The translations under genes and the position numbers were made by a program. Positions 6,292-40,730 of a DNA stretch of 64,000 nt are shown one piece after another (positions within the stretch are counted from its first letter, which is position 1; every line of letters begins with the position of its first letter). The stretch is from Halochromatium roseum (lineage in GTDB: Bacteria; Pseudomonadota; Gammaproteobacteria; Chromatiales; Chromatiaceae). The notes below the pieces were generated by a model that worked only from the letters and a program-made list of their open reading frames with translations, had not been told where the DNA came from and searched no databases. The stretch covers positions 1 to 64,000 of the forward strand of contig NZ_NHSH01000054.1 in the NCBI RefSeq assembly GCF_016653315.1. The letters run 5' to 3'.

Positions 6292-9287
<2,996 letters not shown>

Positions 9288-38393: not shown

Positions 38394-38468
38394 CGCTATC
38401 CCGCGCGCTATCCCGCGCCCCCTATCGCTCATCTTTATCCAGCATCCCTATCCCGCATCCCTATCCCG
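38394..38468. repeat. Short direct repeats at the 3' end of the DUF2063 gene
   Basis: Two adjacent 12-bp copies of CGCTATCCCGCG (38394-38405, 38406-38417) and two adjacent 13-bp copies of CATCCCTATCCCG (38443-38455, 38456-38468). The last copy includes the stop codon of the minus-strand DUF2063 gene. Confidence 0.8.
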
Positions 38469-39306
38469 CCAAGCGTCGTGTGCCGACGAGGATCTGTCGC
38501 TGCCTGAGGTCCTTGAGCAATCCGGTGCCAAACTGGACGACGCGCGCTGGCTCTGGATGCCGCAGCTCAGCGGCGATCGTCTCCAAGCACTCGAGTCCTG
38601 ATCGCTGCGACTGTTGTTCTTTAATAAGCTGCAGCAAGCGCTGAGTGACCAGGTTGATCTTCAGGAACTCGACCTCGTCGTTTCGGTTGCGATAGACCAC
38701 CAGGTGGGTGGCTTCAGGGCCTGGCTCTTGTGGCTGGAAGTCAGGTCCGATCTGGTGCACTGGGAAACGGTAACTGAGATTCCAAGCAAGCGGCGAGAGC
38801 AGGGGGATGCCGGTGAGCAGATCGCCGTTCGGGTCGGCGAGATCGGTGGCCGCTTCATCATCGCTGAACAGCAGCGCGGCCTCGACCCATTCGTAGTGCG
38901 CAAGCTCGAGCATGAAGGGCAGGTCATCGGGCTGCGCCTCTCGCTCTTCGCTGAGGAAGGCGATGAGTTCTTGGCCGAGCTGCGGGAAGAGCGGCGTGGT
39001 CGCTCGGTGCTTGATCATGAACTGGCGGATCAGCGCATCCCAGCGTGCCTGACCCAGGCATTGATACAATACCGGAAAGCCCTGGCTTAACAGCGACGAG
39101 AGGTTGTTGAAGAACAGATCGCGATAGATTGCCATCCGCCTCGGTTCGACCTCGGCGGGTAGCGCTCTCTCTGCCGGGTTACGGATGTGGGCAGTGAAAG
39201 CGCGCTGGACCTCTGCGAAATGCTTGGCCCCGGGCTTCGGAGTCATGCCTGCCGGAGTCATGCCTGCCGGAGTCATCCCTGACTGCAGGTTATGGTCATG
39301 AGGCAT
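38461..39306 (-). CDS. hvfC: DUF2063 partner protein of the MNIO enzyme (HvfC/BufC type)
   Basis: A 281-residue protein with an N-terminal DUF2063 domain ([17 protein letters not shown], then [19 protein letters not shown] and FPVLYQCLG) and a C-terminal domain with [15 protein letters not shown]. Proteins of this pair act as recognition partners that deliver the precursor peptide to the DUF692 enzyme. The start overlaps the hvfB stop by 11 bases, so it is coupled. The N-terminus reads [16 protein letters not shown], encoded by a 15-bp tandem repeat that offers three more in-frame ATG codons; the true start could be any of these. It is the last gene of the three-gene operon. Confidence 0.88.
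39238..39282. repeat. 15-bp tandem repeat in the hvfC 5' end, three copies
   Basis: Three copies of a 15-bp unit, the third imperfect at its end, each encode [10 protein letters not shown] on the minus strand. Because 15 is a multiple of three, copy-number change would alter length without frameshift, and each copy supplies an in-frame ATG. Confidence 0.85.
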
Positions 39307-40180
39307 AGGCCAGCTGCTCCTGCCTCAGTTGGGCGGTTGCAAGCCTATGAGACGCTTGAAGAGAGGCTTGAATGCTGCTGATTCGCTGAACCTCGTTGGT
39401 GAGTTGATCGAGCGGCGGAATGTTGAAGTCGCGTTCGAGTAGTGTTGGAAACACGCCGAAGCGCTGATAGGCATGCTCAAGCAAGTCCCAGACCGGCTCG
39501 ATCACATCCGCCCCATGGGTGTCGACACGGAGGTCTGGCGCCTCTTCAAAGTGCCCGGCGATGTGTCCGTAGACGATACGATCACCTGGGAGGCCATTGA
39601 GAAACGTATTCGCATCGTAGCGGTGGTTGATGCTATTGACCTGGATGTTGTTGACGTCGAGGAGCAGATTGCAGTCGGCCTCGTGCAAGACCGCGTTGAT
39701 GAACGCCAGCTCGCTCATTTCTTGGCCGGGTGCGGCGTAGTAGGACACATTCTCGAGTGCAATTCGCCGTTCTAAGATGTCCTGAACCTGGCGGATGCGC
39801 TCGACCACATGGTCAACGGCCTCGCTGGTAAACGGAATCGGCATCAAGTCGTAGAGATGGCCTTCGTCCGAGCAAAAACTCAGATGCTCGGTGTAGGCGC
39901 GAATCTGATGCCGATCGAGAAATCCCTTGATGCGGCGAACCAGGTCGAGATCCAGCGGGGCCGGCGAGCCGATCGAGAGGGAGAGCCCGTGGCAAACGAA
40001 CGGGTAGCGCTCAGTCAGGCTGCGCAGGACCTTGCCCCAGCGGCCGCCGACACCGATCCAATTCTCCGGCGCGATCTCCCAGAAATCGACCTCGGCGGGG
40101 CGCTGTTCGGCTGCGACCGCCGCAAAGGCGCGTCGCAGGCCGAGGCCCGCGCCATGAACAGGGAAAGCATGTGCGCTCAT
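39296..40180 (-). CDS. hvfB: MNIO (DUF692) multinuclear iron-dependent oxidase, HvfB/BufB type
   Basis: A 294-residue TIM-barrel protein of the DUF692 family, whose members use two or three non-haem irons and oxygen to modify cysteines in ribosomal peptides. Candidate metal ligands are all present: His64 in CHGLSLSIG, Glu98-His99 in YTEHLSFC, Glu143 in ALENVSYYA, Asp175 and His186 in [15 protein letters not shown], His206 and His210 in YGHIAGH, Asp220 and His222 in VDTHGAD, and Glu249 in LLERDFNIP. It lies 29 bases downstream of the precursor gene and overlaps hvfC. By family precedent it converts cysteines of the EGKCG motifs to copper-binding heterocycles. The start ATG 40180 has GAGG upstream. 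Confidence 0.92.
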
Positions 40181-40209
40181 GGCGAGACCCTCAGATCGAT
40201 CGAGCGGGA

Positions 40210-40482
40210 TCAGCTGGCGCCGCCGCACTTACCTTCGCCGCACTTACCCTCGCCACCCTCTTTGTTGCCACATTTGCCTTCGCCGCACTTGCCTTCGCCG
40301 TCACTCTTGCCGCCACACTTGCCTTCGCCACAGCTGCCTTCAGCGAGCATCAGATAGCCGCCGTCGAGCTGCTCGGCAGCAAAAGGATTCTCTGCGGCAT
40401 GGGCCAGATTAGCCATCGACAGGCTGCCGACGAGGGCAGCGCCGATCACCGCAGCAGCTGGGGTTGTGGTGTTCTTGGACAT
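40210..40482 (-). CDS. hvfA: Copper-binding RiPP precursor with EGKCG repeats (HvfA/bufferin type)
   Basis: A 90-residue precursor with a signal peptide of about 29 residues (ending ANLAHA), so the product is periplasmic or secreted. [12 protein letters not shown] is a conserved linker of HvfA proteins. The C-terminal core has one EGSCG and five EGKCG motifs. Its six cysteines are at 51, 56, 66, 71, 81 and 86, three pairs in a 15-residue period. No cysteine lies elsewhere in the mature part. Related peptides are modified at these cysteines by the DUF692-DUF2063 pair and then chelate copper, for copper defence or acquisition. The start ATG 40482 has GGAG eight bases upstream. The number of cysteines actually modified here is unknown. 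Confidence 0.92.
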
Positions 40483-40498
40483 GGGTTCCACTCCGAAA

Positions 40499-40527
40499 AT
40501 GATAGAGTTATCGTTTCTCTTGGTGCC
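40499..40527 (-). promoter_or_regulatory. Weak candidate promoter of the hvfABC operon
   Basis: On the minus strand TATCAT (40499-40504) lies 17 bases from GGCACC (40522-40527), just 5' of the hvfA ribosome site. The -35 is unlike the housekeeping consensus; an ECF sigma factor is possible but I cannot name one. Confidence 0.2.
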
Positions 40528-40730
40528 TGCCGACGCCGAAACTGGGTCTCGGATGCGCCGACAACGACTCATTCATAGCACAGTGTTTTGCTGGGGTAAA
40601 ACCGGGCGGCTCGTCCAGCTACTGTCTGCTATCGCTGGTAGAGACCCAGTAAACTGGTCAAATGTTTCATCGCAGAGGCTCTGAGTTTCGATCTCGATCG
40701 ATCTCGATCTTGGCAAGCTCAATCTCAAGC

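Follow-up and report, generated by a model that had tools for sequence, protein, structure and literature searches.

A minimal hvfA-hvfB-hvfC operon of Halochromatium roseum and its putative ECF-sigma-type promoter shared with a second, distant copy

Can three minus-strand genes of a purple sulfur bacterium make up a whole copper-peptide system, and how might they be switched on with no copper regulator nearby? The question is raised by hvfA, hvfB and hvfC in the window, which is the whole 64,000-nucleotide stretch of Halochromatium roseum DNA analysed here. Our reading, to which we give a probability of roughly 0.88, is that these genes form a complete minimal HvfABC operon (EGKCG-type captophorin) in which HvfB and HvfC would form 5-thiooxazoles and the exported product would buffer Cu(I). 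The features of the locus are as follows.

40639-40669, minus strand: putative ECF-sigma-type promoter of hvfA, TGAAACATTTGACCAGTTTACTGGGTCTCTA, of the form TGAAA-N18-GGTCTYTA
40210-40482, minus strand: hvfA, exported precursor of 90 aa with its ATG at 40482-40480; NF050137, Chromatiaceae orthologues
40393-40482, minus strand: Sec-like signal peptide of HvfA, residues 1 to about 30, ending AHA/A, judged by eye
40222-40341, minus strand: HvfA core with three EGxCGEGKCG double motifs in tandem period, Cys 51, 56, 66, 71, 81 and 86
39296-40180, minus strand: hvfB, MNIO (DUF692) peptide-modifying iron enzyme of 294 aa; PF05114, NF003818, and 3BWW by sequence and fold
38461-39306, minus strand: hvfC, DUF2063/NGO1945-type partner (PME1, RRE-like) of 281 aa; PF09836, PF22106, NF050145, fold of 3DEE

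The gene coordinates bear out the preliminary description of one operon in the order hvfA-hvfB-hvfC, with a gap of 29 bp between hvfA and hvfB and an overlap of 11 bp between hvfB and hvfC. All three genes lie inside the span it gave (38461-40527), although the upper bound of this span runs slightly past the hvfA start at 40482, and the putative promoter extends beyond it to 40669. The neighbours are argD, an aspartyl protease gene (convergent), DUF1841, nth (identified by homology and eye), V-ATPase subunit D and an FGGY kinase gene, and these identities agree with the earlier remark that no DoxX, copper transporter or copper regulator stands beside the operon. Neither an intrinsic terminator nor a sigma-70-like site was found on the operon strand. 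Short degenerate 13-bp tandem repeats (CTATCCCGCATCC) were seen directly 3′ of hvfC (38396-38469).

The identity of the enzyme was established by profile searches and modelling. HvfB matches PF05114 (E=4.6e-106) and NF003818 (E=1.6e-133; 444 bits, cut-off 360), and the best PDB match of its AlphaFold2 model (pLDDT 91.7) is 3BWW (E=3.6e-23), a DUF692 protein of Histophilus somni which matches by sequence too. Among 33 aligned HvfB sequences there is no variation at H64, E143, D175, N177, N178, H206, H210, D220, H222, E249, D251 and F252, and almost none at R16/R17; these residues and the profiles uphold the description of a DUF692 enzyme with all candidate metal ligands. The FonB residues that have been studied, Arg15/Arg16, catalytic Asp249 and Phe250 (PMC12668002), correspond in the alignment to R16/R17, D251 and F252, and the published HvfB site-3 ligands N175, D242 and H244, whose substitution inactivates the enzyme (PMC13419390), correspond to N177 or N178, D220 and H222. 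Both the FonB-type specificity residues for the Lys-Cys group and the MNIO metal-site residues are therefore conserved across this alignment.

HvfC is a DUF2063 partner as first described, matching PF09836 (E=5e-26), PF22106 (E=2e-30) and NF050145 (E=3.7e-91; 305 bits, cut-off 142). Its AlphaFold2 model (pLDDT 91.4) has 3DEE (NGO1945) as best PDB match (E=7.1e-8), though by sequence no PDB match was found at E<=0.001. The Pfam matches of HvfB to DUF692 and of HvfC to DUF2063 are those by which the preliminary description proposed to check its families, and the identification of the HvfABC genes is far beyond chance. The start of hvfC also holds a fifteen-base tandem repeat (39238-39281), and the N-terminal repeat of the second hvfC, on contig C88, differs (QADAQADAQANVQANVQ).

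The 90-residue exported precursor with six EGxCG motifs was likewise recovered, the signal peptide being judged by eye. One EGSCG and five EGKCG motifs are paired as three EGxCGEGKCG units that repeat every 15 residues (45 bp), and a stretch ENPF...GGYLMLA lies between the Sec-like N-terminus and these units. In profile searches HvfA passed the cut-off of NF050137 in two stretches (E=7.2e-11), stayed under that of the equivalog NF050188 (37.9 vs 95 bits) and matched no Pfam family, DUF2282 included. All Halochromatium/Lamprobacter precursors examined, of both copies, begin their motif series with EGSCG, which is probably modified by HvfB as well, because FonBC accepted Ala, Arg and Thr in the third position of the motif (PMC12668002). 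At six Nitrosomonas loci the HvfA precursor retains one or two clear EGKCG motifs, with an intact HvfB alongside.

A Pfam search of the genome found exactly two MNIO genes, one in the window and one on contig C88. The latter (locus L006) belongs to a second hvfABC, flanked by genes for a histidine kinase and a sigma-54-type response regulator. The HvfB tree places copies 1 and 2 in different clades, both supported and both with members from Lamprobacter and Halochromatium; judged from the tree, copy 2 diverged anciently from copy 1 and the duplication is older than the split of the two genera. The nearest named relatives are Lamprobacter modestohalophilus (HvfB 90% identity) and Halochromatium, and the hvfA-hvfB-hvfC order with EGKCG precursors was found in nearly all relatives inspected. 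Copy 1 keeps its syntenic nth-DUF1841 position across Halochromatium/Lamprobacter. Among relative loci with readable upstream DNA, nth stands just upstream on the same strand in 28 of 64, with DUF1841 too in 15 of the 28, and in 25 of 72 relative loci a DoxX gene lies no more than 1.5 kb after hvfB. These counts point to an old gammaproteobacterial order nth-DUF1841-hvfABC-doxX, the upstream part of which is retained by the window copy, without doxX.

The only DoxX detected in the genome is encoded on C88, adjoining DUF3179, and the copy-2 promoter is about 8.6 kb away. It is the orthologue of the DoxX following hvfC in relatives, and its identity to the DoxX proteins of relatives beyond the genus, some of them encoded directly after hvfC, reaches 70%. 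Within the genus the orthologue is present in five genomes (G000, the genome studied here, G001, G002, G003 and G005) and missing from G006 and G007, which carry one HvfB only, of copy-1 type; therefore copy 1 is truly minimal in those two genomes, and they are natural tests of the need for DoxX/HvfX. In G004, also without the orthologue, a different DoxX-family gene stands under the same promoter element as hvfA. The word minimal, used in the preliminary description, is thus true of the window locus, but the arrangement is a known one (the fon cluster) and the genome adds a second hvfABC and an unlinked doxX. At copy 2 (L006:5215-6495, L006:2988-4367) an NDH2-like FAD oxidoreductase gene lies 21 bp after hvfC, an arrangement seen also at further Lamprobacter modestohalophilus copies. 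This protein is not favoured as a DoxX substitute: it was seen at copy-2 loci of the genus alone, and DoxX is encoded nearby.

Alignment of the regions upstream of both hvfABC copies revealed a shared element, which is conserved in the Halochromatium/Lamprobacter orthologues. The pattern TGAAA-N18-GGTCTYTA has exactly two matches in the 5.17-Mb genome, each upstream of an hvfA, and its reversed control has none there. Its placement remains nearly exclusive across eight genomes of the genus, where 15 of 18 sites precede hvfA-type genes; two others stand before a small exported GNPD-motif protein and one before a DoxX-family gene. Three loci were noted to encode small exported proteins that have GNPD/GNPDL motifs and match no Pfam family, and at two of these loci, in two genomes of the genus, the gene carries the element of hvfA.

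A relaxed form of the element gave ten sites in the genome, against about five expected by chance from base counts and none for the reversed pattern. Five of them are upstream of genes: the two hvfA genes, doxX, one gene for an exported protein of the AhpC/TSA family and one for an HxxxCxxC protein of 85 aa whose match to DUF3379 is below threshold. The five others were set aside as chance, four being inside predicted genes and one having no downstream gene. Five genomes retain the element before doxX. On C88 the HxxxCxxC gene and an ECF sigma gene (C88:23371-23898) are transcribed divergently, and G002 and G003 preserve this layout together with the element; the pair looks like an ECF sigma factor and its putative ZAS-type anti-sigma, and nothing on DUF3379 with ECF sigma was found in the literature searched. 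At locus L164 a putative ZAS anti-sigma gene (7850-8107, minus strand; HAAQCAPC, DUF3379-like N-terminus) is divergent from an ECF sigma gene (8264-8902, plus strand) followed by that of a response-regulator receiver protein. An orthologue of the C88 sigma was not found in G006 and G007, yet G007 (89% complete) keeps the exact hvfA site. Outside the training set the promoter core was found upstream of hvfA in 5 of 75 cases (three Thiohalocapsa loci and two others; shuffle mean 0.5), and therefore it is not general to the family.

Homologous clusters are controlled by RpoE2 in Haemophilus (PMC7907618) and by SigE in Neisseria (PMC2893595), and the conserved ECF-sigma-like promoter suggests envelope or oxidative-stress control of hvfABC here. 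We lean, by a little more than even odds, towards a dispersed captophorin regulon of Halochromatium/Lamprobacter in which the one ECF sigma (C88:23371-23898), acting via GAAA-N18-GGTCT, would govern the two ancient hvfABC copies, the unlinked HvfX-type doxX (with DUF3179), the periplasmic peroxiredoxin and the zinc anti-sigma, so that copper-peptide output would belong to an envelope redox-stress response and would not be copper-specific. This hypothesis, drawn from genomic sequence, is the sole part of our account beyond the routine. The shared promoter offers a concrete and testable answer to how hvfABC may be switched on without a nearby copper regulator.

For this organism we infer the chemistry, export, copper binding and sigma control by analogy with characterised systems. 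Stress would release the sigma factor and hvfA would be transcribed, probably from 40639-40669, whose element is common to the second hvfABC and the unlinked doxX. HvfC would bind the precursor and hand it to HvfB, an O2-using multinuclear iron enzyme predicted to convert each EG(K/S)CG cysteine with its preceding residue to a 5-thiooxazole, four H being lost per Cys. Modified HvfA would leave via Sec, and its six heterocycles may bind Cu(I) and so buffer periplasmic copper excess. The earlier view that related systems turn motif cysteines into copper-binding heterocycles is supported and, by the literature, refined: the EGKCG peptides fontiphorin, Haemophilus oxazolin and gonophorin carry 5-thiooxazole, at -4 Da per Cys (PMC12668002, PMC13419390), which closely related MNIO-PME1 pairs install and which goes with copper binding (PMC12668002).

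The same enzymes and modification might serve mainly in envelope oxidative-stress defence, with the thiol-bearing heterocycles acting as oxidant scavengers or as ligands for another soft metal. The type of promoter points to a wider stress signal, which counts against a copper-specific role; the shared core also precedes doxX, the periplasmic AhpC/TSA peroxiredoxin gene and the putative ZAS anti-sigma gene, and in Haemophilus HOCl induces the homologous cluster via RpoE2 (PMC7907618). We nevertheless regard it as rather unlikely to be the main job, as copper binding is reported for fontiphorin, oxazolin and gonophorin, and growth under copper stress is improved by bufferins (PMC12668002, PMC12452194); the two roles are in any case compatible because copper stress is itself oxidative.

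Far less probable is that the window copy is a decaying or inactive paralogue whose work is done by the C88 copy. A second hvfABC does exist, and sister genomes hold decayed hvfB or orphan hvfA remnants, but these are of copy 2, whereas copy 1 is intact, with all active-site residues, its promoter and its syntenic position kept, and is the sole HvfB in G006 and G007. At four sister-genome loci such remnants were seen as copy-2 type hvfA genes with an intact promoter and no intact hvfB behind, as orphan precursors or with decayed hvfB. Least probable of all is an oxazolone-thioamide as in methanobactin, the product being a copper-acquiring chalkophore. Oxazolin was originally so assigned, and the NCBIfam naming of HvfA still follows this, but it was reassigned to 5-thiooxazole by alkylation-assisted HMBC (PMC12668002; accepted in PMC13419390), and HvfB scores 444 bits with the HvfB model against 268.6 with the bufferin BufB model (cut-off 310) and 37.6 with the methanobactin MbnB model TIGR04159 (cut-off 325). 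The preliminary description stands in its family assignment, its operon structure and its likely chemistry, and the copper-buffering HvfABC operon is kept as the preferred reading.

Compared with known systems, the operon belongs to the EGKCG class (HvfABC/oxazolin, fontiphorin; "captophorins") as an ordinary member, with machinery known from other bacteria. A close likeness is to the fon cluster of Fontimonas thermophila (PMC12668002), which likewise has only precursor, MNIO and PME1 without DoxX, and shares the EGKCG-repeat precursor and the Arg-Arg and Asp-Phe specificity residues; fontiphorin, however, has seven modification sites against six in HvfA, whose first motif is EGSCG, and the Halochromatium genome adds a second hvfABC and an unlinked doxX. 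Nontypeable Haemophilus influenzae hvfABC(X) (oxazolin; PMC13419390) has the same gene families and six Cys in three double EGKCG motifs, but its operon includes the DoxX-like HvfX, and HvfB here is without a stretch of about 20 residues that Haemophilus-like 3BWW has between HIAGH and DTHG. In Neisseria ngo/NMB2140-2145 (gonophorin; PMC12668002, PMC2893595) there are an EGKCG product, a DUF2063 partner of solved fold (3DEE) and ECF-sigma control, which in our case is presumed, and the SigE -10 motif CGTCTAAH resembles GGTCTYTA (PMC2893595); sigma, anti-sigma, hvf genes and DoxX form one operon there, whereas Halochromatium has them dispersed over two or more loci. The bufferins Buf1/Buf2 (PMC12452194) resemble this system by their genes, having MNIO, a DUF2063 partner, a Sec-exported Cys precursor and a copper-buffering role, but HvfA has EGKCG repeats and no DUF2282 match, and no sigma/NrsF genes are adjacent. 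What is new is mainly the second copy elsewhere in the genome and a stress-type promoter common to the dispersed parts, which it links. With this operon, anoxygenic purple sulfur bacteria in which two EGKCG systems coexist are added to this widespread class of copper-handling RiPPs.
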